Below are positions 5,300 to 52,598 of a stretch of 64,000 nucleotides of DNA, in pieces; the stretch's first letter is position 1; each line of letters starts with the position of its first letter. Below the pieces are notes generated by a model, which did no database searches, was not told the DNA's origin, and saw only the letters and a list, made by a program, of their open reading frames with translations. Both the position numbers and the translations under genes were made by a program. Source of the DNA: Caldivirga sp. MU80 (GTDB lineage: Archaea; Thermoproteota; Thermoprotei; Thermoproteales; Thermocladiaceae); contig NZ_LCTF01000007.1 of NCBI RefSeq assembly GCF_001663375.1, positions 1 to 64,000 on the forward strand, written 5' to 3'.

Positions 5300-6517
5300 G
5301 TGCTTATTGCCCACCTCTCCGACGTGCACCTGGGTAGGAGGCAGTATGGACTTGAGGCGAGAGCCAAGGACTATGAGTTAGCCTTCCTCAGGGCCATTGA
5401 TGAGATTATTGGACTACGTGAGGAGAGGGGTGTCGACCTGGTTCTGGTTAGCGGGGACCTCTTCGATAACCCAAGGCCATCACCCTCAACATACCTCACG
5501 GCCATTAAGGGCTTTAGTAGGCTTAGGGATTCAGGCATAGATGTGCTGGTTATAAGGGGTAACCACGATGCATCAGTCATAAACCCCATAGATAACCCCA
5601 TAACTGTATTGGACTCCTCAGGCTTGGTCAAGTACCTTGACCATGGTTACGTTGATTATGGTAAGGTTAGGGTGATTGGTGTTGGCTGCGCACCCACTAA
5701 TAGCCGGGTTAAAATGGTTAAGGCGCTAAGAGAACTGTTGGGGAATGGAGTTAACATTGTCATGATGCACCAGTACGTTGAGGGTGCCCCATACAGGTAC
5801 CCAATGCCTAACATAGACTACTACACTATACCAGCTGGTGAACTGCCCAAGGATGCTTACTACGCCGTCGGCCACATACACGAGCACGCCTTGAGACACC
5901 CAACCCTCGAGGCCGTGTACCCTGGGTCACTTGAGGTTTGGGACTCCCAGGAGTTCGAGACTCATGTGCTTGAGGGTGGTAGGTTGAGGATGGTTAAGGG
6001 CCAGGATCCAAAGGGCTTCCTACTGCTGGATGTTGATGAGGGTAGTGGTAGGGTTAGGGTTGAGCCCATTAGGCTTAAGGGAGGGCGAAGGATGATTAAG
6101 GTTATCGTTAACGTTAACGGTGAACCACCATCAACCTTCAAGGAGCAGTTAGGTGGGTTGGGAGCCTTAGACTATAGGGATGCGTACGTTGAGGTTGATG
6201 TGATTGGTGAATTGGGTGATGGGTTCAGCGTTAGGGATTACGGGTTCAACACGGTTAAGGGCCTAATTAACGGCGCCCTTAAGGTGAACGTTAAGCTATC
6301 CGTGGCAAGGCGTGGGTCAGCCAAGGCCCAGGCAACCCATGGCCTAATTGAGCTTATTCAAACAGTGCTCAACAAGAGTATAGGTGATGAGGCTGTGGTT
6401 AACGCAGTTTTGAGGGCCCTCGACCTGATAAGTGATGGTAAGGTTAATGAGGCTGTGGCCATACTGGAGAGGGGGCTTGGACTGGGGAGTGATGTTGAAT
6501 GGCTTCAGTGGAGTTAA
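5300..6517 (+). CDS. mre11: DNA double-strand break repair nuclease Mre11
   Basis: This 405-residue calcineurin-like nuclease is the Mre11 subunit of the Mre11-Rad50 complex that resects DNA ends. All phosphoesterase motifs are present: HLSDVHLG at the N-terminus, SGDLFD at about 51-56, RGNHDAS at about 92, then MMHQYVEG and VGHIHEH. A capping/Rad50-binding region follows to the C-terminus. The start is a GTG at 5300, about 27 bp after a T/A-rich TATA-like element at 5270-5278, so the mRNA is probably leaderless. The gene overlaps rad50 by 19 bp, indicating translational coupling. In many archaea herA and nurA flank this pair; they are absent here. Confidence 0.93.
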   Translation: MLIAHLSDVHLGRRQYGLEARAKDYELAFLRAIDEIIGLREERGVDLVLVSGDLFDNPRPSPSTYLTAIKGFSRLRDSGIDVLVIRGNHDASVINPIDNPITVLDSSGLVKYLDHGYVDYGKVRVIGVGCAPTNSRVKMVKALRELLGNGVNIVMMHQYVEGAPYRYPMPNIDYYTIPAGELPKDAYYAVGHIHEHALRHPTLEAVYPGSLEVWDSQEFETHVLEGGRLRMVKGQDPKGFLLLDVDEGSGRVRVEPIRLKGGRRMIKVIVNVNGEPPSTFKEQLGGLGALDYRDAYVEVDVIGELGDGFSVRDYGFNTVKGLINGALKVNVKLSVARRGSAKAQATHGLIELIQTVLNKSIGDEAVVNAVLRALDLISDGKVNEAVAILERGLGLGSDVEWLQWS

Positions 6518-8913
6518 TTGAGGTGGAGAACGTTAGGTCAGTTAGGAAGGCCTCAATAAGGCTTAGTAGTGGGGTTAACTTCATATATGGCCTTAACGGG
6601 GCTGGGAAAACCACAATACTTGACTCCATAGCCATAGCACTCTACGGCACTGACTGGCTGAAGAGGAGGAGGATTAGGCTATCCGACCTAGTCACCATGG
6701 GGGCCTCCGTGGGTGTGGTTAGGCTACTCATAAACATAAATGGCCGCAGGTACACTGTCCAAAGAGCCTTCACCAGGGAGAAGGTTATTGAAACCCAGAC
6801 CTACGTAATGAGCGAGGATGGGGTTAGGGTGGCGGAGAGGGATAGGGAGGTCACCAGGTGGGTCACTGAGAACCTAGGCGTGGACGTGGAGTTGTTTAAC
6901 CTACTCTACGCCAGGCAGGGTGAGTTGAGGGATGTACTTGAGGTTAATAGGAGGGAGGAGTTTAAGCTGGATAAGCTGCTTAAAATAGACTCCATGGATA
7001 AACTGCAGACAGAGGTCCTGAGGGGCATTGAGAGGAGGCTTGAGGGGGAGGCAAAGGCCCTTGAGGCCGCCATTAAGGAGAACAGTAACGAGAGGGAGAG
7101 GATTGAGAAGAGGCTGAGTGAGGCGAGGGCCAGGGTTAAGGAGCTTGAGTCCATGATAAGTGGGCTTGGCGAGGAGTTAAGCAGGAAGGAGACTGAGCTA
7201 AGTGAGCTTAGGAATGAGGAGAGGAGGCTCATAGGGGTTAGGGAGAGGTTTAACACCATTAATGACGAGTTGAACAGGCTTAGGGATGAGTTGAACAGGC
7301 TTAACGCCGAGGTTGAGGAGCTGAAGGCTAAGGTTAAGGAAAAGGAGGTGCTTAAGGCCAGGGCCAGGGAGATTGAGGATAAGTTAAAGGCATCAAGGGG
7401 ATTGAGGGATGAAGCGAGTAGGCTCGAGGAGTTGGTGAATGAACTAGGGGGGAGGGTGAGGGAGCTTGAATCCAAGGAGTCGATGATTAAGGAACTTGAG
7501 AGGCAACGCTCAGACCTAAATAGGCAAATAAGGGAGCTTGAGGATGAGTTAGAGGAGTTGAGGGAGGTTAGGGAGAGGAGGAGGGGGTTGGAGGAGAGAA
7601 TTAGGGAAGTTACATTAAGGCTGAGGGAGCTTGATGAGTTAAGGGCCAGGAGGACTTCACTAATGGAGGAGTTGAACCACATTAACGAGGAGTTGAACAT
7701 ACTTAAACAGTCCAATGAACCAGTCTGTCCAGTCTGCAAAAGGCCGCTCAACCCTGATGATAGGGAGAGGATAATTAAGGAGAATGCGGAAAGGATGAAG
7801 AGGATTAGGGAGGAGTTAAGCAGTATTAACTCAAGGCTTAGGGATTACGACAACCTTAAGGAGGATGAGGAGGACCTCAGGGGTAAGCTGGCTCAGGTTA
7901 ATGTGGCTGAGGAGAGGATACCCACCCTGGAGTCTAGGCTTAGGGAATTGAGGGGTAGGTTAACCGAGCTTAACGAGGAGCTGGAGGCCATTAAGGGTGA
8001 GGTTAAGGAGCTGGCTAAGCTAAGGGAGGAGTACAATAATGCCAATGCTAGGCTTAGGCAGTTGAGGAACCAGTTAAAGAGCCTTGAGTCGCTTCAGGAA
8101 GAGTACCTTAGGATTAGCGCCGAGTTGGCAAAGAACCCTGAGGCGGAGTTGAACAGCCTACTTAACAATAAGTCAAGGATTGAGGCCAGGGTGAGTGAAC
8201 TGGAGGATGAGGCCAAGAGACTCAGCGGTGAGTTAACTAGGCTGAGCAATATTGAGGAATTGGTCAGTAAGGTTGATGATGAGGTTAAGGGGTTGAGGGC
8301 CAGGCTTGAGCAGGGTAGGGGTAGCCTAAGCCAGTTGATAAGCAGCATCGGGGAGATGGAAAATGAGGCTAGGCGCATAGGCGAATTGATAAGTAAGAGG
8401 AGTGAGAGGCTTAGGTTCATTAGGGGTAAGCTACAGGAGGTTGCTAAACTGGCCAGCGCCATTGAGGGTGCTAAGCCAGCCTTAAGGAGGGCGCTCCTAA
8501 ACGCCATAAACGAGGAGTTGAGGGACACCTTCAAGGTGCTTAGGCATAAGGAGTCGCTTGCGGAGATTTACGTGACCGAGGATTACGAGGTCATGGTTAA
8601 GAGGAGTGATGGCAGGGAGTTACCGGTCAGCATGTTGTCCATGGGTGAGAAGAACCTGGTGGCCCTAGTCCTCAGGTTCGCGCTATCTAAGGCTCTCCTC
8701 GGCGACATACCGATAATGCTCCTCGACGAGCCCACGGAGCACCTGGACTCTGAGCATAGGAGGAGGGTGTCAAACTGGCTAAGGGACCTATCCGAGGTTG
8801 TGGATACCCTGATAGTCACCTCCCATGTGGATGCCTTCGAGAACACTGCTGATAACGTGATAAGGGTTGAGGTGGTTAACCCAAGGGGCGAGTCCGTAGC
8901 CTACAACGCCTAA
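6499..8913 (+). CDS. rad50: DNA double-strand break repair ATPase Rad50
   Basis: This is an 804-residue SMC-like ATPase. Walker A is GLNGAGKTT at residues 31-39, followed by a long heptad-rich coiled coil (about 170-640) interrupted by the zinc-hook CPVCKRPL at about 410-417, which dimerises Rad50. The ABC signature LSMGEKN is near 713 and Walker B IMLLDEPTEHLD near 738-749. Rad50 uses ATP to regulate Mre11 nuclease and tether DNA ends. It is co-transcribed with mre11 through a 19-bp overlap; the ATG at 6499 is the first codon that preserves the N-terminal beta-strand before Walker A. Length is within the range of crenarchaeal Rad50. Confidence 0.94.
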   Translation: MASVELIEVENVRSVRKASIRLSSGVNFIYGLNGAGKTTILDSIAIALYGTDWLKRRRIRLSDLVTMGASVGVVRLLININGRRYTVQRAFTREKVIETQTYVMSEDGVRVAERDREVTRWVTENLGVDVELFNLLYARQGELRDVLEVNRREEFKLDKLLKIDSMDKLQTEVLRGIERRLEGEAKALEAAIKENSNERERIEKRLSEARARVKELESMISGLGEELSRKETELSELRNEERRLIGVRERFNTINDELNRLRDELNRLNAEVEELKAKVKEKEVLKARAREIEDKLKASRGLRDEASRLEELVNELGGRVRELESKESMIKELERQRSDLNRQIRELEDELEELREVRERRRGLEERIREVTLRLRELDELRARRTSLMEELNHINEELNILKQSNEPVCPVCKRPLNPDDRERIIKENAERMKRIREELSSINSRLRDYDNLKEDEEDLRGKLAQVNVAEERIPTLESRLRELRGRLTELNEELEAIKGEVKELAKLREEYNNANARLRQLRNQLKSLESLQEEYLRISAELAKNPEAELNSLLNNKSRIEARVSELEDEAKRLSGELTRLSNIEELVSKVDDEVKGLRARLEQGRGSLSQLISSIGEMENEARRIGELISKRSERLRFIRGKLQEVAKLASAIEGAKPALRRALLNAINEELRDTFKVLRHKESLAEIYVTEDYEVMVKRSDGRELPVSMLSMGEKNLVALVLRFALSKALLGDIPIMLLDEPTEHLDSEHRRRVSNWLRDLSEVVDTLIVTSHVDAFENTADNVIRVEVVNPRGESVAYNA

Positions 8914-9042: not shown

Positions 9043-10887
9043 ATGGCCAACTGCACGGTAAGGTTCATGCTGGGTAATCACGCCGTCGCCCACGCCGCCC
9101 TAGAGGCAGGTATTGCCGTGGCGGCCGGTTACCCAGGCACGCCAAGTAGTGAAATCATTGAGTACATTTTTGAGCACGCTGGGGAGACTGGGACTTACGT
9201 CGAGTGGTCGAGTAATGAGAAGGTTGCCTTTGAGGTTGCCTACGGGGCAGCCTTAGCTGGGGCTAGGGCTTTGGTCAGCATGAAGCACGTTGGGTTGAAC
9301 GTTGCCATGGATCCCCTCATGTCAAGCGCCTACACGGGGGTTAGGAATAGCCTACTAGTTATAACGGCTGATGACCCAGGCATGTGGTCCAGCCAGAATG
9401 AGCAAGACAATAGGTGGGTTGGCCTACACTCCCACATACCAGTCTTCGAACCCTACAACCCCCAGAACGCCGCTGACCTGGTTAAGTTATCAATGGACTT
9501 CAGCAGTAGGCTCAACCACCCAGTCATAATGAGGCTGGTTACTAGGGTTTCCCACGTTAGGGAACCTGTTAAGGTGTGTGAATTCGGTAAGCCAATATAC
9601 GCCAGCGGCTACGTGAAGGATCCAGCCCACCAAGCCCTAGTGCCGGCTAATGCCAGGTTACTTAAGGGGGAGCTTGTTAAACGTTGGGAGGAGGTTAAGG
9701 CACTTGTTGAGGACCTACCCCACGAATACGTTGATGACGGGAAGGTACTCATCATAACCAGTGGGGTTGCGTATAGGTACGTTAAGGAGGCCCTCGAGGA
9801 CCTTGAGGTTAAAGCCAGCACCCTTAACCTAGCGGCATCAGTACCTGTGCCTAGGAAGCTAATAGCCAATGCAGCCTCCAAGGCCGATAAGGTCATTGTT
9901 GTCGAGGAGGGTGACCCGGTGGTTGAGCTTCAGGTTAAGGAGACCCTCTTCGACGAGGGGATTAGGATCCCGGTTTACGGCAAGGCGGAGGGGTTATTCA
10001 CCATGGTGGGCGAGTTAACGCTGATTAACGTTAGGGAGGGTATAGCTAAGGCTCTTGGCGTTGATATAGGCAGGGTGGTTAACCATCAGTATGTTGCTAA
10101 TGTACCCCCACGCCCACCTGTATTCTGCCCAGGCTGCCCCCATGCAGCCTCCTTCTACGAACTGAAAATAGCAGCCGCAAGGGCTAGGGTTAAGCCTGTG
10201 TTCAGCGGTGACATAGGCTGCTACTCCCTTGGCATAAATCCACCGTTTAACGAGCAGGACCTTTTAACTAACATGGGCAGCTCAATAGGGTTAGGCATGG
10301 GTGTGCTTAGGGGTACTGGGGGTAGGCAGTTTATAGTGGCTGTGATAGGGGACTCAACCTTCTTCCACGCTGGTTTACCAGCCCTGGTGGATGCCGTTTA
10401 CAATAAGGCACCCATGCTCATTGTGGTGCTTGACAACAGGTACACGGCCATGACGGGGGGCCAACCAAGTCCAACGCAGGTTATTGACATAGGTGCCGTG
10501 GCTAGGGCTATTGGGGTTAAGCATGTCTACACAGTGGACCCATTCAACGTTAAGGGGGCTGAGGAGGCCCTTAGGGACGCCATTGAGAAGGTTAAGGGTG
10601 GTGAACCGGCTGTGGTGGTTATGAGGAGGGCATGCGCCCTGGAGGCGGTTAGGGGCCGTGGGGCATTGGTGGTTAGGTACACCGTAGATGCCGACGCCTG
10701 CAGGGCATGCGGCATATGCTATAACCTACTAGCCTGCCCAGCAATAAACAAACTCGACAACGGCAAGGCAACTATTGACCAGGCCGCATGTGTAGGCTGC
10801 TCAGTCTGCGCCCAGATTTGCCCATACGGCGCAATAAGGCCCATTGGTGAACCCAGTGGATGGCTTAGTAAGTGGGGTGAGCTATAA
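9043..10887 (+). CDS. iorA: Indolepyruvate ferredoxin oxidoreductase, alpha subunit
   Basis: This 614-residue thiamine-diphosphate enzyme oxidatively decarboxylates aryl pyruvates from aromatic amino acids to aryl-acetyl-CoA, reducing ferredoxin. The N-terminal pyrimidine-binding domain contains AAGYPGTPSSE and SMKHVGLNVAMDPLM. The pyrophosphate-binding part contains CPGCPHAASFY, GDIGCYSLG and the ThDP motif region GDSTFFHAGLPALVDAVYN. The C-terminus carries two [4Fe-4S] motifs, CRACGICYNLLACP and CVGCSVCAQICPYG. A TATA-like ATTTAAAAG at 9013-9021 is about 26 bp upstream of the ATG. The stop overlaps the iorB start by one base, so the two subunits are made from one operon. Confidence 0.92.
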   Translation: MANCTVRFMLGNHAVAHAALEAGIAVAAGYPGTPSSEIIEYIFEHAGETGTYVEWSSNEKVAFEVAYGAALAGARALVSMKHVGLNVAMDPLMSSAYTGVRNSLLVITADDPGMWSSQNEQDNRWVGLHSHIPVFEPYNPQNAADLVKLSMDFSSRLNHPVIMRLVTRVSHVREPVKVCEFGKPIYASGYVKDPAHQALVPANARLLKGELVKRWEEVKALVEDLPHEYVDDGKVLIITSGVAYRYVKEALEDLEVKASTLNLAASVPVPRKLIANAASKADKVIVVEEGDPVVELQVKETLFDEGIRIPVYGKAEGLFTMVGELTLINVREGIAKALGVDIGRVVNHQYVANVPPRPPVFCPGCPHAASFYELKIAAARARVKPVFSGDIGCYSLGINPPFNEQDLLTNMGSSIGLGMGVLRGTGGRQFIVAVIGDSTFFHAGLPALVDAVYNKAPMLIVVLDNRYTAMTGGQPSPTQVIDIGAVARAIGVKHVYTVDPFNVKGAEEALRDAIEKVKGGEPAVVVMRRACALEAVRGRGALVVRYTVDADACRACGICYNLLACPAINKLDNGKATIDQAACVGCSVCAQICPYGAIRPIGEPSGWLSKWGEL

Positions 10888-11474
10888 TGAGGCTGAACAT
10901 TTACCTAACCGGCATTGGGGGACAGGGGTTAATAACCTTCGCCTCCATCATTGGCCAGGCGGCGGTGGACTCGGGGCTTAGGGTGACTGTGGCTGAGACC
11001 CATGGGTTGAGCCAAAGGGGTGGGGCCGTGGATGTACACGTCAGGATTGGTGAAGCCCACTCACCCCTAATACCGAGGGGTGAGGCTGATGTCGTAGTTG
11101 CCTTTGAGATTATCGAAGCACTAAGGGCCCTCCCATACACTAACCCGGCCACTGTGTTCATAGCCAATAGGAGGCTGATACCGCCACCAGCCTTCAGGGG
11201 TAAGTTACCTAAACCCGAGGACGTTGAGGTTGAAATCAAGAGCAGGGTGGCGTCGGCGTACTTCATAGACGCCTACAACCACGCCGTTAAGTTAGGTAAC
11301 CCAATTTTCGAGAACATGGTGATGCTTGGAGCATTATTCGCGTTAACAAGGGTTAAGGAGTTGATTAGCATGGATACGGTTGAGGGGGCTATAGTTAAGG
11401 TAATAGGCAAGGCTGTGCAGGAGAACCTGAGAGCCTTTAGACTGGGCTACAGTATTGCCTCAGCCAGGCGCTGA
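10887..11474 (+). CDS. iorB: Indolepyruvate ferredoxin oxidoreductase, beta subunit
   Basis: This is the 195-residue partner of IorA and corresponds to the gamma-type domain of other 2-oxoacid oxidoreductases. The N-terminal motif YLTGIGGQGLITFA, followed by ETHGLSQRGGAVDVHVRIG, is diagnostic of this domain family. A late segment NMVMLGALFAL is also typical. It completes the alpha-2-beta-2 enzyme. The ATG overlaps the TGA of iorA (ATGA), so translation is coupled. Transcription probably ends before the MoxR gene, which has its own TATA-like ATAAATA near 11520. Confidence 0.92.
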   Translation: MRLNIYLTGIGGQGLITFASIIGQAAVDSGLRVTVAETHGLSQRGGAVDVHVRIGEAHSPLIPRGEADVVVAFEIIEALRALPYTNPATVFIANRRLIPPPAFRGKLPKPEDVEVEIKSRVASAYFIDAYNHAVKLGNPIFENMVMLGALFALTRVKELISMDTVEGAIVKVIGKAVQENLRAFRLGYSIASARR

Positions 11475-11545
11475 AAGGCCCTGAACTTTAGTTAAGTAGT
11501 GTGTAGAGTGCAAACCATTATAAATAGGTTGGGGTCTGTTAAACT

Positions 11546-12685
11546 ATGGAACCAGTGAGAGGTAAGGGTATTGAGGACATTAGGAGCTTGTACCTGAAGT
11601 TGAACAGCATGTTCTACAAATACAGTAATGAGGTTACAGGCATCTTGATGTCAACCCTGGCCAGGGAGAACTACCTACTCATAGGGCCACCTGGAACGGC
11701 TAAGACAACCCTAGTCTACGTGCTGTCCAAGCTACTCAATGCCAAGTGGTTTTATAGGCAGTTGACGAAGTTCACCGACCTTGAGGAGATACTTGGACCC
11801 ATAGATGTGGCTAAGCTACTTGAGGGTAAGGTTGAGAGGATTTACGCGAATTCAATAGTTGAGAGCGACTTCGCACTACTCGACGAGATATTCAACGCCT
11901 CAAGCGCAATACTGAATACACTCCTCTCGCTACTGAACGAGAGGGTTGTTTACGATGGGGACAAGGTAATCCCGGTTAAGACCTGGACTGTCTTCGGTAG
12001 CAGTAATAGGATTCCAGAGGAGGAGGAACTTCAAGCCCTCTACGATAGATTCCCCCTAAGGACCTTCACAGAGTACGCCTCACCGGAGGACACGGAGGCC
12101 TTGTTGACGAAGGGGTGGTACCTGCGTAGGGAGACTGAGAGCCTAACCCCCGTGGCTACCATGGAGTTGATTAGGGACACCTACAATGAACTGGTTAGGC
12201 ACCTCTACGGGAACATTAATGACGTGGCCAAGGTGGTTTCACCGATAATAGCGGATTTCGTTGAGCATGTCCCTATAAGCAATAGGACTAGGATAAAGGT
12301 GCCCCTCTACGCATTAGCCTACCTAATGATCCAGGGGTTCCCCCTAAGCCAAGTCAACGCCACCATGCTTAGGGTTGCCGTTATGAAGGTTGCCCGCTAC
12401 CTGGTTCATGATAGGGAGCAGTTGAACGAGTACGAGGCCTTTCTAACGGCCCACTTGCCCGATGAGCTACTTAAGGTGAGTGACCTGGTCAGTGAGGCTA
12501 AGGCGCTCGTTAACAATAACATGGTTAATGAGGCTGCCCAGAAGATCAAGGAGGCTGAGGAGACCCTTAACAGGCTTAAGGCTAAGTGGGATAGGTCACT
12601 GCTGAGCCTATACTTGAGTGAAATAGAGGAGACGGATTACCTAATACAGAGGCTGAAGGGTGCCATATATGGGTCAGAGCAGTGA
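11546..12685 (+). CDS. MoxR-family AAA+ ATPase
   Basis: This is a 379-residue AAA+ protein of the MoxR/RavA group. Walker A is GPPGTAKTT at about residues 49-57, Walker B FALLDEIFNASSAILN at about 109-124, and the sensor-like FGSSNRIPEEEE is at about 151-162, followed by an arginine-containing LYDRFPLR. MoxR ATPases act as chaperones that mature or regulate enzyme complexes, usually with a VWA-domain partner, and such a gene overlaps its 3' end by 17 bp. The C-terminal third is helical and probably contacts the partner. A TATA-like ATAAATAGG at about 11520-11528 fits the ATG at 11546. The client complex is unknown. Confidence 0.85.
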   Translation: MEPVRGKGIEDIRSLYLKLNSMFYKYSNEVTGILMSTLARENYLLIGPPGTAKTTLVYVLSKLLNAKWFYRQLTKFTDLEEILGPIDVAKLLEGKVERIYANSIVESDFALLDEIFNASSAILNTLLSLLNERVVYDGDKVIPVKTWTVFGSSNRIPEEEELQALYDRFPLRTFTEYASPEDTEALLTKGWYLRRETESLTPVATMELIRDTYNELVRHLYGNINDVAKVVSPIIADFVEHVPISNRTRIKVPLYALAYLMIQGFPLSQVNATMLRVAVMKVARYLVHDREQLNEYEAFLTAHLPDELLKVSDLVSEAKALVNNNMVNEAAQKIKEAEETLNRLKAKWDRSLLSLYLSEIEETDYLIQRLKGAIYGSEQ

Positions 12686-14015
12686 GGAGGACTACGGCAT
12701 ACTCCTCAACGTAGACTACGGGGAGGAGTTAACCCGCTACAGGCTTAGGGAGGTTTTCCTAATGGCTAAGCGCCACATGGTGCCTAACCTGGAGAAGGTG
12801 AAGAGCTACATACTGGCTGACTCATTCTACATACACTACAGGCAACCCATACTGAGGAGCAGTGCTGATAATGATAACTACAGGGCCCTGTGGAGACTGA
12901 TAGTGAGCAATTACATCAACAGTGAGCAGTACGCCGAGGTGTCCAGGTTAACTAGGCTTAATGGAAGGTTGTCAAGGATCATGGCCGTTAAGCTACTTAG
13001 AATATATGTCAACATGCTTAATAGGATTGAGCGCAATGAGAGACTGTCCAATGCACTTAAGGATGCATCAAACAAGTCATCGCAGTCGTCTAGGGAGAGT
13101 AGGAATATGCTGGATAGAGAGATTAGGTCGCTGATATCCTTCTACATGGGCAACATGAAGAAGGTTAACGACACCATTAACAAGGCCCGCTCCGTGTTGG
13201 GCCCAGCCATAGGGCATGAGGTGGCTGAGTTAATACTGGACACGGACGTAGACCCATATAGGGCTAGGCTCGTTAACATGCTTAACTCACTCCTCAAGCT
13301 TGTCGTGGAGTCAAGCCGCATGTACGATGAGGGGCTGCTCAATGAGACCCTTGACAAGGGTGTTGTAACTGGGATAAAGAGGATGAGCAGGGTCAATGAG
13401 GTTAAGGACTTGACACCCACTAATAGGGCCCTGGCCAGGTTCGTTAAGCCAATATATGCCTACAAGTTGGCTACTGGGAGCTTGACGGTTAAGGAGAGGA
13501 GGATGATGAGGAAGCCCAAGATTTACCTAGTCATTGATAAGAGCGGGAGCATGTTCTACACGGTTATGAATAACATATTTGAGTACAGCAATGTAAGTAA
13601 GATAACCTGGGCAGCGGCGCTAGCCATAGTCATGGTCATGAAGGGGCATGAGGTTGTGGCCAGGTTCTTTGACCAGCAGATTTACCAATTAATGACGAAC
13701 AAGAAGGACATTGTTAAGACACTCCTATCCCTAGTGCCACTGGGCGGCACAAACATAACCTCAGCCATTAGGGCGGCTTACGAGGATGCCCGCAGGAACC
13801 CAGCCTTAAGGAACTATAAACTGGTTTTAATAACCGACGGCGAGGATGATGAACTGGACCTAGCTCTCATTAAGCAGGGCCTATCGGGCTTCAGCGACTA
13901 CAGGATTATCCTGATCGGTAATGAACACTCGGCGCTGGAGATGCTTGGGCCAAGGGTAACCAAGATACATAATCTAAACGCCAGGTCACTCATAAACGTC
14001 CTAAGGAGACTATAA
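12669..14015 (+). CDS. VWA-domain protein, MoxR partner
   Basis: This 448-residue protein has a helical N-terminal half and a C-terminal von Willebrand factor A domain. The MIDAS metal-binding motif DKSGSMF occurs at about residue 290, with the supporting threonine in LGGTNITSA and aspartate in ITDGEDDE. It resembles ViaA/CoxE-like proteins that pair with MoxR ATPases. I choose the ATG at 12669 over a GTG three codons earlier because it is the stronger codon; either way the gene overlaps the ATPase gene and is translationally coupled. The two proteins probably form a metal-dependent chaperone complex; no substrate is indicated by the neighbours. Confidence 0.8.
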   Translation: MGQSSEEDYGILLNVDYGEELTRYRLREVFLMAKRHMVPNLEKVKSYILADSFYIHYRQPILRSSADNDNYRALWRLIVSNYINSEQYAEVSRLTRLNGRLSRIMAVKLLRIYVNMLNRIERNERLSNALKDASNKSSQSSRESRNMLDREIRSLISFYMGNMKKVNDTINKARSVLGPAIGHEVAELILDTDVDPYRARLVNMLNSLLKLVVESSRMYDEGLLNETLDKGVVTGIKRMSRVNEVKDLTPTNRALARFVKPIYAYKLATGSLTVKERRMMRKPKIYLVIDKSGSMFYTVMNNIFEYSNVSKITWAAALAIVMVMKGHEVVARFFDQQIYQLMTNKKDIVKTLLSLVPLGGTNITSAIRAAYEDARRNPALRNYKLVLITDGEDDELDLALIKQGLSGFSDYRIILIGNEHSALEMLGPRVTKIHNLNARSLINVLRRL

Positions 14016-44309: not shown

Positions 44310-44687
44310 AACTCAGTAGGTGCATGGTGGGGGTAATTAAACGTTTCACTAAATACGAGTATTTACAAACTACTACAGTGTTTTAAAGTATGCCACCGAT
44401 ACTTTAAATCATCAGTATTGAGATAAAGTGTACGAATCCAAGCGAAGACCTACGTTACCATGATATACCGGTAACAAGGTTTAAATACTTTAAGGCTGAG
44501 AAACAAGGACCTTAACCATAATCCTACTTACCAGGACCAAGTGACTTGGTTAAAGGTGTACATGCACACTTAATACTAACTGAACCTAGGCCTTGAATTA
44601 AGTTTCCCATACCTAAAAACTTAGTTGTTATTAGGGAACCGTCACCAGACATTATTTTTATATAGGGATAAAAGATTAGGGAATTTG
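44310..44687. promoter_or_regulatory. Palindrome-rich intergenic region before the DtxR-type gene
   Basis: This 378-bp gap contains a run of inverted repeats: AAATAC-GA-GTATTT at 44351-44364; TTTAAAGTAT at 44382-44391 matched perfectly by 44399-44408 across 7 bp; GTTACC at 44454-44459 with GGTAAC at 44470-44475; ACCAAGT-G-ACTTGGT at 44536-44550; and GTGTACATGCACAC at 44557-44570. TATA-like boxes sit at about 44332-44339 (minus), 44480-44488 (plus) and 44655-44664 (plus). Operators for the DtxR-type regulator, or a small RNA starting near 44510, are plausible. Confidence 0.5.
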
Positions 44688-45332
44688 ATGGAGACTGTTA
44701 AGGAGAGCAGGAGTACTAAAGTTGCCAAGGAGGATTACTTAATGGTAATTAAGATACTTAACGATTTCTACGGTGAGGCGTCACTAACATTAATAGCCAA
44801 TGAACTTGGCGTCACCCCTGCAACTGCGCATAAGGTAATTGAGCATTTAAGTAATGAGGGGTATGTGGTTAAGTTAAGTAGGGGTATCTACACCCTAACG
44901 GATAGTGGTAACGGGTTAGCTGAGAGAATGCTGGGTAAGCATAGGATACTTGAAGTATTCTTAGGCATACTTGGGTTTAATCAACTTGAAACCCACGTGT
45001 ACGCCCATGAACTAGAGCACGTTAACGATCTAGTGATAGATAAAATATACAACATGCTTGGTAGGCCAAGGGTATGCCCACACGGTAACCCAATTTACGG
45101 CAAACCTGAGGGGGTGAGGTTATCGAAGACATACCCAGGTAGAGTTATTATAACTGCAGTAGCCGAGTTGAAGAGTGTATTAAGCTTCCTAGCTAGTAAT
45201 AAAATCAGCGTCAATGATACCCTAACTGTTATACGCAGAAGAAGGGGTGATGTTACAGTTGATTTTAATGGACGGCAAATAGTCATTGATGAGTCCATAG
45301 CATCAGGGATAGTTGTAATTGGGACAAGGTAG
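44688..45332 (+). CDS. DtxR/MntR-family metal-dependent regulator
   Basis: This 214-residue regulator has an N-terminal winged helix (KVAKEDYLMVIKILNDFYGE; LIANELGVTPATAHKVIEHL), the dimerisation/metal-binding domain with HRILEVFLGILG, ETHVYAHELEHVND and CPHGNPI, and a C-terminal FeoA-like SH3 domain. The His, Glu and Cys ligands of the family are present, suggesting Fe or Mn sensing. The ATG at 44688 is preferred over a start 21 codons earlier because TTTTATATAGG at about 44654-44664 sits at leaderless distance. It is preceded by several palindromes. Confidence 0.83.
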   Translation: METVKESRSTKVAKEDYLMVIKILNDFYGEASLTLIANELGVTPATAHKVIEHLSNEGYVVKLSRGIYTLTDSGNGLAERMLGKHRILEVFLGILGFNQLETHVYAHELEHVNDLVIDKIYNMLGRPRVCPHGNPIYGKPEGVRLSKTYPGRVIITAVAELKSVLSFLASNKISVNDTLTVIRRRRGDVTVDFNGRQIVIDESIASGIVVIGTR

Positions 45333-47763: not shown

Positions 47764-50700
47764 ATGGTAAACCGTTATGAAGCATTAGGCTTCGTGGATA
47801 GGCCATTCAACCCAAGTGGACTCCCCCCAATGACTAGGCGTTACGCTACAATGGGTCTTGATAAGGAGATCAGTGAGGTGATGAAGGCAATCGACGTCTT
47901 CCTGAGGGGAAGTGATAACATGCTCCTAGTCATAATTGGACCCTATGGCTTTGGTAAATCAGACCTACTTGATGATGTTGAGGAGAGACTTAAGGGGCTT
48001 AACATCGACACTATTAGAACGGCGCTAAGCCTCAGCATGAGCATTAAGGATTTCTTGATCAGTAGGCTTCGTGATAGGGACCCTAGTAAGCCAATGGTTA
48101 TAATGTTCGATGAGGCAGATGAATTAACTAGGGCTGTGTTAATGTCCGGCGGCGTGAATAGTGATGTTAAAAACGCCATTATGCAGGTCACCGGGTTAAT
48201 AAGGGCTATACTTGAACCTAAGAATTACGCATCTCTGCTTAACCTGAAGCCAAGTAGCCTAGGCAGGATAATGATAATAGCCGCCTTCACCCCCCAGCTC
48301 TACTACAGCATACTAAGGAACAGCGTACCTGATGTGTTCGACATAGCCAGAGGCAGGGTGTTTAAGGAGGTGGTGATTGATGATAGGGTGCCTTACTGGC
48401 TTTATGAGGCCATAGTCGAGAATAGGCTCCTATCGTACTCAACGCCGGAAAGGCTTAAGGCGATTAAGGATGGTAAAATCAGCCCACTATGGCCATTTAA
48501 CAGGGAACTGCTATCATTAATCTACCTGATAGCCAGGAGGATGGAGAATGGGCAAGCCTCACCGAGGAACCTCATCAAGTTGACCTCCAAGTTATTTGAA
48601 ATGGCCATTGAGAATAATGGACAATTAAGCGTTAACCTAGTGCTTAGTTTCGTAACATCTGAACTGGGTAAGTACGTTAACCTCGATTTACTCAATGAAC
48701 TGAAGACATATGGTGATGAGGTGCTGGGCGTGGCATTATCAGGCATACCAGTTAAGGCCAATTCAAACATTGAATTAACTGGGCTTGTTGAGAAGGTTAA
48801 GGTTATTGAGGTTAACCCAGATAACCCAAGCGAGTTACGCAAGGTGAATAATGTAAGGATGATTTACGGTAAGCCGCCCATAATAGTCGACGACTTAAGG
48901 AACCTATCCATAGAATATGGCTCATACTACACGGTGCCAACCGATAGAGGCATTAGGTTATTCGTAATACTCCCACCTGATGCAAACCTGGAGGGTTTCG
49001 TAGGTTATGATGCGTATATACTGAAGAAGGGCATCCACGATAAGTTACTAGGCTTAGTTAGCACTGAAGGTGCCAGCGTTGATGAGTTAGGCAACTTCAT
49101 TAAGCAGTTAGCCGCCATGAAGCCTGTTGATGTGGCTGGTAGGATAATCGGTATGCTAGCTAAGAGCGATGCAATTAAGGTTCAGGATGGCTTAAGGGTA
49201 GCCATTGTTGATAATGTGCTGGATGCTAGACTGGCCTACGCAACACTCGATAACCCAGATAAGGTGGCTAGTATTGCGTTGAACTGCGGTGTTAAGGTAA
49301 ATGGGCAGGTTAAGTACGTGGACGGCTTAATAGCCCTAGTGGTTAATGACCAGGTGTTAACTAATCAATTAAACACAAACCTAAACATTAAGTGGTGCAA
49401 CACATACGATGCATCCCAGAGAATCCTCCTTCTGAGTTACGGCTCAGATAGCATTGAGGAGTTAAGGAACACGTTGATAGGCCTATACGTGCTTTCAAGG
49501 TTCAGCAAAGTGCCCAGTGAGTACAGTAGCCAAGTTCAAGTTGCAATGAGGTTCATCGAGAGAGTGAGCGCCTTTAGGGACTCGTTAAGGAACCACATAC
49601 TTCAATACACCCTAGGCCTACCCAGGAGGAGAGAGGGTAAGAGGGACGCCATTAGGGGTATTGTTGAGAGTTGGATTGAGGGTAAGGTCGACCAGCAGTT
49701 GCCACCAGCCTTTAGGTGCGGTGATAAGCCATGCATCTCCAGGGTTGAGTCAACCCTAGTCAACTATCTAAGTAACGTGGGTAAGCCCATTGACGAGAGG
49801 GAACTTGAGCAGATAATAAGGGGGCTCTTCCCGGTGCAATTGTGGAGGGAGTTCAGGGAGCATGACCTCGTGGAGCTTATGAGACTCAGGGGGCTACTAC
49901 ACGACCATAATGGTAAGTACATCCTGACCGTTGGTGATGGATTTAGAAGAGCTGTTGAGGATACGTGCAGTAGAATAAGGGAGCTGAGTAAATCACTGGA
50001 CAGCGGCATAACCATTAATATTAATGGTGTCAACCTAACTCTGCAGGCCGGTTTAAGCAACCTGCAGGGTAGTGTTAAGGCTCTTGAGGATGAGTGTAGG
50101 CTACTCATGACTGTGATAAGGAATCCAAGTGAGGATGACTTAAAGAGGCTGGCTAAAATAAACTTAAGACTATTGGACATTCAAAGCGAGGCGGATGAGG
50201 TTAAGGGTAAGGAGGGGAACCTAGTTAACGAAATTAAGGCGATTATAGGCAACTTGAACACAATTATCGATTCCATAGGTGGTGAGCAGGGCATAAGGGC
50301 TGAGCTTAAGGATGCCGTGAGGGCTAAGGTAAATGAACTTAAGGAACTCATCAATAGGGTTGTGGGTAACCTGAACGGGTTAAGCGTAGATAAGGCATAT
50401 GAGGCTTTAAAGGCCCTTAATGATAATGTAACAAAGGAGATTAATAGACTCAGGAGGGAACTTGAAGTGGCCACTTCAATACTCCTCTACGCACACGAAT
50501 ACTCAATGATAACCATGACCCTGTCTAAGATTAGCCAACTGATTAATGAGGGGGATTCAGTGCTGAAGGGCAACACCAGCATCGACGTTGTTGACTCTAT
50601 CGTTGAACTACTCAGCAGGGACTCACTGGAGGACTTGGAAATAGCCCTAAGCGAATATGAGAGCAGGGTTAAGGAAGCCAGGGCTAGGTTAATGGACTAC

Positions 50701-51063
50701 ATCAACAAGGCGAGGTTTAAGGTTACTAAGATCAGCAACTCGATTAACTGGCTTAGGCATAGGGGTTTACTTAACCAGGACGTAGCCATACCAAGCCTCA
50801 ACTTCACTAACCTAAATGAACTGAGGATGAGTATTGAGAACTTGGTGGCCATAAACAAATTGATCGCTAGTAAGCTTAGTGAAATATCAAATAAACTCAA
50901 CGTACCCTTAAGCGTACTAACCTACATAGCATCCAATGGGCCTAACGTTGGTATAGACGAGGTTGTTATGGCGAGGGAACTTGGGATGGAATCGAAGGAT
51001 GTTGTTAATTACCTTGAAACCCTATGGAGAGCTAAACTGGTGGAGAAGCGTTATGTCTCCTAG
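47764..51063 (+). CDS. Giant P-loop ATPase with coiled coil and C-terminal winged helix
   Basis: This 1,099-residue ATPase belongs to no family I can name. Walker A is GPYGFGKS at residues 59-66 and Walker B MVIMFDEADE at 111-120, preceded by GFVDRPFNPSG, an arrangement like ORC/STAND-type AAA ATPases. The middle is mixed alpha/beta. About 720-1030 is helical with long heptad-like stretches, and the end (about 1055-1095) reads as a winged helix (VMARELGMESKDVVNYLETL). It is not HerA: the HerA/FtsK-specific layout is missing. It overlaps the next gene by 11 bp, and a NurA-like protein follows. TATA-like CTTAATTTAG at 47731-47740 gives a leaderless ATG. A DNA-processing motor is the working inference. 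Confidence 0.75.
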   Translation: MVNRYEALGFVDRPFNPSGLPPMTRRYATMGLDKEISEVMKAIDVFLRGSDNMLLVIIGPYGFGKSDLLDDVEERLKGLNIDTIRTALSLSMSIKDFLISRLRDRDPSKPMVIMFDEADELTRAVLMSGGVNSDVKNAIMQVTGLIRAILEPKNYASLLNLKPSSLGRIMIIAAFTPQLYYSILRNSVPDVFDIARGRVFKEVVIDDRVPYWLYEAIVENRLLSYSTPERLKAIKDGKISPLWPFNRELLSLIYLIARRMENGQASPRNLIKLTSKLFEMAIENNGQLSVNLVLSFVTSELGKYVNLDLLNELKTYGDEVLGVALSGIPVKANSNIELTGLVEKVKVIEVNPDNPSELRKVNNVRMIYGKPPIIVDDLRNLSIEYGSYYTVPTDRGIRLFVILPPDANLEGFVGYDAYILKKGIHDKLLGLVSTEGASVDELGNFIKQLAAMKPVDVAGRIIGMLAKSDAIKVQDGLRVAIVDNVLDARLAYATLDNPDKVASIALNCGVKVNGQVKYVDGLIALVVNDQVLTNQLNTNLNIKWCNTYDASQRILLLSYGSDSIEELRNTLIGLYVLSRFSKVPSEYSSQVQVAMRFIERVSAFRDSLRNHILQYTLGLPRRREGKRDAIRGIVESWIEGKVDQQLPPAFRCGDKPCISRVESTLVNYLSNVGKPIDERELEQIIRGLFPVQLWREFREHDLVELMRLRGLLHDHNGKYILTVGDGFRRAVEDTCSRIRELSKSLDSGITININGVNLTLQAGLSNLQGSVKALEDECRLLMTVIRNPSEDDLKRLAKINLRLLDIQSEADEVKGKEGNLVNEIKAIIGNLNTIIDSIGGEQGIRAELKDAVRAKVNELKELINRVVGNLNGLSVDKAYEALKALNDNVTKEINRLRRELEVATSILLYAHEYSMITMTLSKISQLINEGDSVLKGNTSIDVVDSIVELLSRDSLEDLEIALSEYESRVKEARARLMDYINKARFKVTKISNSINWLRHRGLLNQDVAIPSLNFTNLNELRMSIENLVAINKLIASKLSEISNKLNVPLSVLTYIASNGPNVGIDEVVMARELGMESKDVVNYLETLWRAKLVEKRYVS

Positions 51064-51715
51064 CCCACCGTTGATAATAGCCGTGGTTGATGACCTAGAC
51101 AGTGAGTTATGCAGATTTGTACAATGCATACGTAACTACGACTTTAATAGTAGGGCTGACGTATTGATGTGCCTTAAACAATGTCCAGGGGCAAGGGCGC
51201 ACATAGTGATTAATGTAAACAACTGCAACTGGAGTGGCCCTGTAATTTACGGTAACGTCACCCTTAGGTCAATCAAGTGCTGTGGCGGTGAACAAGCCAC
51301 GTCAACCATAGTGAGGTCAAGGACTGATCAATCCCCCATCTCTAGCCAAGTGGAGGATGGATGCGTGAGGTTAACTAATGAGGGCTTAATCATAACCGGC
51401 TACATTCCTAAGATATACTTAAACTTGATGGTTAATATACTGTTGAATGATATTAATGCCCTATGGGGTAACGTGGTGAATAATGGGGTGGTTAACAGGT
51501 TGGTTAACATTGTGCTGGCGGAGAGGTATTCACTTGGGTTATCCAAGACGCTGATGGGGCTTGTTAAGGCCCTTAAGACAGGGGATGCGTCGAACCTGGA
51601 CAGGGAGACTGTGAGTATACTTGAGGGGCTGGGTATATTGGATTCAGGGGTGTTGGTGGATAAGGATAAGTTAAGGGCACTGATAGACGAGGTGACTAAG
51701 ATTGTATACCCTTGA
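51053..51715 (+). CDS. Cys-rich protein of unknown function in ATPase-NurA operon
   Basis: This 220-residue protein is unrecognised. The N-terminal 100 residues have a beta-strand start (PLIIAVVDDLDSELC) and eight or so cysteines, including CRFVQC, CLKQC and CC, suggesting a metal or Fe-S site or disulfides. The C-terminal 110 residues are helical, ending in a winged-helix-like unit (LDRETVSILEGLGILDSG). The ATG at 51053 overlaps the ATPase stop, and the stop overlaps the NurA-like start by 14 bp, so all three are produced together. The upstream alternative start at 50963 would overlap the ATPase by 100 bp and is rejected. Confidence 0.65.
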   Translation: MSPSPPLIIAVVDDLDSELCRFVQCIRNYDFNSRADVLMCLKQCPGARAHIVINVNNCNWSGPVIYGNVTLRSIKCCGGEQATSTIVRSRTDQSPISSQVEDGCVRLTNEGLIITGYIPKIYLNLMVNILLNDINALWGNVVNNGVVNRLVNIVLAERYSLGLSKTLMGLVKALKTGDASNLDRETVSILEGLGILDSGVLVDKDKLRALIDEVTKIVYP

Positions 51716-52598
51716 GCCACTGATAGGTAGCGTATACAGGTTAAGTGAAATTGACTTAACGCAAATTGGTGCTGAACTCGAGCAGCTTGAGGATGATGAA
51801 CTCGTAGTTGAGGTTAACGCTGAACCCATTGATTACACCGTTGCGGCTGTGGATTCCGGGTTCACGCTTGTTAAGTACCTTGGATTGATGGTTGGTCTAA
51901 TAAACGTTGCTATGGTACTACCCCCAGAATCAAGTAGAAGTAGGTTCATTGCGAGGATAATCAATGATGAGAGGTCCCTTGGGGCAGTTGCCAAGCTTGA
52001 GGAACTTAACGCAACACATGAACTGCTTGATGATAGGGACGTGGTGTTGGTAGATGGGCCACTGTTAACTGAGGGTGAGGGTGACGGTAGGTTAAGGGCA
52101 CTGGTGAATAAGGCACTTGGCACTGGGCGTTACATATTATCCTTCACCAAGGAGGTGCGCCTTAACCGGGTCATTAATAGGCTGCTTAAGGCTGATAAGC
52201 CAATTAATGAGGCATCACTATTCTTCGCACTGTTGGAACGCTTCAGGTTAAGGCATGGGTCAAGGGGTGTGTTGATAACCACCCCAGTGAACCTGCAGGG
52301 TGAGGTTGTGGGTTTTTACATGCAGGCACATGGTGGCAGTCCACCTGTTTACGTTGAAGCCACCAGTAACGTGATTAAGAACCTAGGTGTGCTGGGCACT
52401 GTGGCGCTAATGATGAGTAGGGAGAATTACCCTATACCACTTTACATAGCTGATAAAATCTCTAAGGTCAGTGATGAGTTAAGGAGGTGGTTCATAATGG
52501 CCCTCCTAAGGGTAGGCAGCATGAGTGATGTTGACCCCCTACTGTATAGGTATATTAGGGATGTGCTTGGTTACGCTAGGGGGAGGAACCTTTATTAG
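51702..52598 (+). CDS. NurA-domain-like protein
   Basis: This 298-residue protein resembles NurA nucleases, RNase H-like 5'-3' exonucleases that work with HerA in DNA-end resection. Seen are VAAVDSGFTLVKYLG (the NurA strand with its first Asp), VVLVDGPLLTEG with a second Asp, and the late YPIPLYIADKISKV, matching the family's terminal YP-PL-A motif. The usual VDGS has become VDSG. It starts with TTG at 51702, overlapping the upstream gene by 14 bp; no better start exists. Pairing with an AAA-like ATPase instead of HerA is unusual. Catalytic competence cannot be judged from sequence alone. Confidence 0.65.
   Translation: MYTLEPLIGSVYRLSEIDLTQIGAELEQLEDDELVVEVNAEPIDYTVAAVDSGFTLVKYLGLMVGLINVAMVLPPESSRSRFIARIINDERSLGAVAKLEELNATHELLDDRDVVLVDGPLLTEGEGDGRLRALVNKALGTGRYILSFTKEVRLNRVINRLLKADKPINEASLFFALLERFRLRHGSRGVLITTPVNLQGEVVGFYMQAHGGSPPVYVEATSNVIKNLGVLGTVALMMSRENYPIPLYIADKISKVSDELRRWFIMALLRVGSMSDVDPLLYRYIRDVLGYARGRNLY

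Follow-up and report, generated by a model that had tools for sequence, protein, structure and literature searches.

In the repair of double-strand breaks in archaea, NurA is known as the nuclease that works with the HerA motor. The locus described here raises the question of what a NurA-family protein does when it is encoded beside a large ATPase that is not HerA. The locus is at positions 47764–52598 (+ strand) of a 64,000 nucleotide stretch of contig NZ_LCTF01000007.1 from the heat-loving archaeon Caldivirga sp. MU80 (the whole stretch is referred to as the window). It consists of three overlapping genes, which encode a P-loop ATPase of 1,099 amino acids (aa), a middle protein of 220 aa and a NurA-family nuclease of 298 aa. 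In the order Thermoproteales the operon belongs to the core genome, is present in one copy and is vertically inherited. We consider it an even chance that the trio represents a core machine for DNA processing that is specific to Thermoproteales and passed on vertically, in which an ATPase other than HerA stands in HerA's place.

The nuclease and its ATPase partner

The 298 aa protein is a member of the NurA family, as judged by profile matches that greatly exceed chance. It scores 34.9 bits against the Pfam NurA model PF09376 (cut-off 21), and its orthologues exceed the cut-off in most genomes of the order. A profile of 21 NurA orthologues matches Sulfolobus solfataricus NurA (2YGK) in the Protein Data Bank with E=5.7e-8. 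In this profile alignment the critical residues of Sulfolobus NurA, i.e., D58, E116, D133 and K202 in S. islandicus numbering (PMC4351679), align to D51, E101, D118 and K150 of the window NurA. These four residues are invariant in 21/21 ATPase-linked NurAs. A comparison set of 34 other NurAs, sampled from 12 Thermoproteales genomes, also displays both aspartates and the lysine as invariant and the glutamate as nearly so. An earlier reading of the locus from its letters (the sequence-only reading) had called the protein NurA-like, and the Pfam score, the 2YGK match and the aligned residues bear this out. The protein is very probably an active metal-dependent nuclease. An RNase H-like fold is implied, indirectly, by homology to 2YGK; an AlphaFold2 (AF2) model of the window NurA with two sequences as input has a pLDDT of 38, and its fold is unreadable.

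Three more NurAs are encoded in the genome from which the window comes, each adjoining a HerA, and the separate canonical herA-nurA pairs that had been proposed as a check are thus present. HerA is within 1.5 kb of 29 of the 34 comparison NurAs. The 1,099 aa partner in the operon has no Pfam match to a HerA domain (DUF87 or HAS barrel). A HerA hidden inside the ATPase was also considered and rejected, as hhalign comparison with HerA gives 21–23%, at the P-loop only. A conserved HerA domain, which would have spoken against a new type of partner, was therefore looked for by two methods and not found, and the view that this NurA is partnered by a much larger non-HerA ATPase holds. An mre11 (405 aa) and rad50 (804 aa, with a zinc-hook match) pair is present elsewhere in the window (5300–8913, + strand). 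It differs from the usual four-gene archaeal operon in that no herA or nurA gene adjoins it.

The features of the operon are as follows. The open reading frames, their coordinates, both Walker motifs and the 11 and 14 bp overlaps proposed earlier were all re-found in the sequence.

47764..51063, + strand: P-loop ATPase, probably AAA+-type, 1,099 aa (open reading frame, profile and conservation evidence)
ATPase residues ~30–300: N-terminal ATPase domain
47938..47961, + strand: Walker A, GPYGFGKS, residues 59–66; Y61, G62, G64 and K65 invariant in 24 homologues
48094..48123, + strand: Walker B, MVIMFDEADE, residues 111–120; D116, E117, D119 and E120 invariant in 24 homologues
48289..48294, + strand: candidate sensor 1, T176-P177, invariant; putative role from AAA+ architecture
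48355..48357, + strand: candidate arginine finger, R198 (GR motif), invariant; putative role
48565..48567, + strand: candidate sensor 2, R268 (SPR motif), invariant; putative role
ATPase residues ~330–730: middle domain, divergent
ATPase residues ~750–1030: coiled coil
50866..51060, + strand: C-terminal winged helix-turn-helix (HTH), residues ~1035–1099; MarR_2 and TrmB/HTH matches in homologues
51053..51715, + strand: middle protein, 220 aa, ATG start, 11 bp overlap with the ATPase gene
51702..52598, + strand: NurA-family nuclease, 298 aa, TTG start, 14 bp overlap with the middle gene

The motifs point to the AAA+ class as the probable assignment of the ATPase. Pfam analysis of the window protein shows only weak AAA/STAND-type matches, at the P-loop, with no AAA model over its cut-off. 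The 24 homologues likewise display weak matches, including BrxC/D and nSTAND, and one homologue reaches 22.9 bits with PF00004 (cut-off 21.2). The first description of the protein was "AAA/STAND-like"; AAA+ is the better reading, and STAND is one of several equally weak Pfam matches. The same description proposed a coiled coil and a winged helix at the C-terminus, and both are supported. The winged helix is conserved, with TrmB/HTH matches in several homologues and a MarR_2 match of 1.6e-6 in one homologue, above the model's cut-off.

Kinship with Orc1/Cdc6 was rejected, as the match is weak (hhalign 15–16%) and confined to the P-loop. An SMC/ABC-type ATPase such as Lamassu LmuB was rejected because such ATPases have Walker B near the C-terminus, here it comes 50 residues after Walker A, and the LmuB match of the window protein is in the coiled coil.

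The 220 aa middle protein matches no known family. It was first described as Cys-rich, but this is a local trait: there are 8 cysteines in the Caldivirga homologues examined and 0 in most homologues from Thermoproteaceae.

Distribution and inheritance of the locus

Profile searches covered 398 genomes of the phylum, ~350 of them outside Thermoproteales. The ATPase is present in 41/45 Thermoproteales genomes and in 25/25 of those with a completeness of 90% or more; all four genomes that lack it are incomplete. It is found as a single full-length copy per genome. The 36 remaining genomes in the class gave no match, and neither the ATPase nor the middle gene has a full-length match in the ~350 other genomes of the phylum, where the ATPase profile meets only coiled-coil, P-loop or winged-helix fragments. 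The middle protein is found in 38 genomes of the order, with just two marginal matches elsewhere. The window ATPase is 85% identical to that of another Caldivirga sp. genome. A contig pattern search with a single protein returned one close Caldivirga relative only, and a search of viral contigs found no relative.

The order ATPase-middle-NurA on one strand is maintained in 33 of 36 loci examined. This is the outcome of the neighbourhood survey in Thermoproteales that the sequence-only reading had proposed. In one locus (L062, genome G069) the middle and NurA genes have moved together and are 3.7 kb from the ATPase gene on the opposite strand (L062:5589–6909 and 10562–13561). Because the pair was separated together from the ATPase, the middle protein and NurA are suggested to be the tighter unit of the trio. 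Of the remaining two loci, one is on a contig that is too short. The other, L047 (genome G044), has the ATPase but neither a middle nor a NurA gene on its 7.6-kb contig, owing to an assembly break or a real loss.

Five loci (L073, L075, L076, L077 and L078) have ATPase genes that several frameshifts interrupt; their genomes are of normal size and of lower estimated completeness. The broken genes are probably uncorrected sequencing errors and not pseudogenes.

The overlap between the ATPase and middle genes is also conserved. The longest open reading frame of the middle gene opens at TTG 50963, but the conserved start is ATG 51053, which gives the 11 bp overlap. The start, TATGTC, is nested in the last ATPase codons (...YV[S/A]*) in Caldivirga, in Pyrobaculum-type/Thermoproteaceae loci and in other loci. 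The overlap is thus old. The C-terminal tyrosine of the ATPase (Y1097) is invariant, which may be due in part to this nested start.

The distances of the three proteins correlate (r 0.61–0.81). Beyond the trio the neighbouring genes differ between families and are not conserved; those recognised are housekeeping genes. The GC content of the operon, 0.46 compared with 0.48 for the window, is unremarkable. Upstream of the operon, at 44625–45332 (+ strand), is a gene for a metal-dependent repressor of the DtxR/MntR type that carries a FeoA domain.

Known systems and alternative explanations

The closest comparison is with archaeal HerA-NurA (with Mre11-Rad50). In both, the gene for a NurA that shares the four critical residues adjoins an ATPase gene, and ATP-coupled DNA processing is likely common to them. 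They differ in that the ATPase here is about 950–1,245 aa, has a coiled coil and winged helix and has no DUF87 match; there is an extra middle protein, the NurA is shorter, and canonical NurA-HerA pairs coexist in the same genomes. The trio may act in the manner of a NurA-motor system, but it is not considered a HerA-NurA complex, because the defining HerA partner was searched for and is absent. The CRISPR-linked nurA-csm6-herA genes of Pyrobaculum represent another lineage-specific NurA paralogue of the same order, but there the partner is HerA and CRISPR arrays adjoin (PMC3396285). The survey of Pyrobaculum nurA-herA paralogues lists three nurA groups per species in its Table A2 and has no sign of a fourth, ATPase-linked group (PMC3396285).

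BREX BrxC/BrxD (PF10923) is similar to some homologues in the P-loop region (best 2e-5 among the 24). The one homologue seen in detail scores 21.5 against a cut-off of 22.2, however, and the window protein has no match; no BREX genes are among the neighbours identified, and the trio is not patchy.

An ATPase from another taxonomic family of the phylum (f29) was also compared. This ~905 aa ATPase is followed directly by a ~372 aa coiled-coil protein (L183:7018–10847, L184:3976–7827 and L185:4238–8089). The N-terminal ATPase domain is alike from P-loop to Walker B (hhalign 95%), and the sensor/finger-like layout is similar by eye. The pair differs in that the coiled-coil partner has no NurA or other Pfam match, and no wider similarity was found. 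It was rejected as a relative of the trio, as the adjoining gene encodes a coiled-coil protein and not NurA, and it is possibly an analogous undescribed complex.

Four other explanations of the trio were weighed. The first is a machine for chromosome segregation, compaction or division, in which the nuclease clears entangled DNA by a MukBEF/Wadjet-like logic. The long coiled coil, the winged helix and the order-specific, core nature of the complex are consistent with this, and hhalign ties the C-terminal winged helix to the CdvB/ESCRT-III-like winged helix at 97%. Thermoproteales are not known to have Cdv division proteins, which also counts in its favour. Yet winged helices are generic, the ATPase is not an SMC protein and a nuclease is an unusual component of such a machine. 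The ATPase coiled coil gives 0.3% against CdvB, equal to reversed decoys. Kinship of the ATPase C-terminus with CdvB/ESCRT-III was rejected on this basis, and the explanation as a whole is unlikely. CdvB/ESCRT-III-like proteins of ~260 aa were seen in six genomes (L171, L172 and L174–L177), where profile matches are through the C-terminal winged helix.

A second explanation is antiviral or anti-plasmid defence, in which the ATPase would detect foreign DNA, in the manner of STAND, BREX and Lamassu ATPases, and then unleash NurA. An ATPase with a nuclease is a common defence layout. Some homologues weakly match nSTAND_NTPase5 and BrxC_BrxD in Pfam (under cut-offs where seen), and PADLOC gives LmuB matches in several members. 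But the LmuB match of the window ATPase (783–1043) is in the coiled coil, and the SMC/ABC layout is absent. Defence systems are patchy, whereas the operon is found as one copy in every near-complete genome of the order, in fixed gene order, with no sign of mobility and with housekeeping neighbours. A defence island was rejected on this distribution and gene context, and defence in general is unlikely. The earlier proposal of a "distinct DNA-processing or defence machine" is thus retained in its first half. The second half is not favoured, given a core, single-copy, vertically inherited locus among housekeeping genes with no specific PADLOC family.

The nuclease might also be a catalytic relic, retained in a structural or regulatory role as a subunit of the ATPase. 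The ATPase-linked NurAs are shorter (about 243–364 aa) than canonical NurA (mostly 330–495 aa) and evolve fastest of the three proteins, with a mean distance of 2.1 compared with 1.5 for the ATPase. The invariance of all four critical residues in 21 diverse members makes this improbable. It is very improbable that the complex is an ancillary factor of Ted DNA uptake and exchange that makes or degrades single strands during import, as the link is one of co-occurrence across the order only and no Ted genes were recognised adjoining the operon among the neighbours examined, although not all neighbours were searched.

A proposed core DNA-processing machine and its significance

A core cellular machine, and not a defence island, is preferred because of universal single-copy presence, the conserved overlap and vertical co-inheritance. 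The parts of this reading differ in strength. Housekeeping chromosome maintenance, in place of defence, is highly probable, and it is probable that the three proteins form one complex. Control of the nuclease by the ATPase is somewhat favoured. It is doubtful that the ATPase is a HerA-like processive translocase as opposed to a loader or switch. The job is most likely the processing of chromosomal DNA ends, replication forks or recombination intermediates.

Several points weigh against the core-machine reading. Much of the correlation between the distances could be due to vertical co-inheritance alone. The AAA+ class is drawn from motifs, as the window protein is below the cut-off of every Pfam AAA model and AF2 models of the ATPase domain (two sequences) are too poor for Foldseek. 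No function can be assigned to the middle protein. The ATPase-linked NurAs all fall on one side of one branch in the tree, but this single clade is weakly supported (55/60). The hydrophobic positions of Sulfolobus NurA that contact HerA (I295/F300) are uninformative, since they vary in HerA-linked paralogues too.

In HerA-NurA, the motor feeds DNA into the NurA dimer (PMC12977600; PMC5715905). By analogy, the ATPase plus the middle protein may load or feed DNA to NurA. The AAA+ ATPase would assemble on DNA, with the C-terminal winged helix and coiled coil binding DNA or partners, and the middle protein would bridge or regulate. ATP hydrolysis would then deliver DNA to both active sites of the NurA dimer or open it for them, which is the part that HerA plays with canonical NurA.

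A search of the open literature found no description of an ATPase-middle-NurA operon, and the ATPase and adaptor families are named by none of the libraries used. Thermoproteales have often drawn attention for their unusual DNA and division machinery. The trio could tentatively represent an undescribed, probably essential and order-defining chromosome-maintenance complex, where AAA+ motors of a new family, with an adaptor of their own, took over NurA and provide a second, HerA-independent drive for it. The association of a NurA subfamily, throughout the order, with a new adaptor and an ATPase unrelated to HerA would imply that NurA can exchange one motor for another, and the locus would mark a universal, uncharacterised component of genome maintenance in Thermoproteales.
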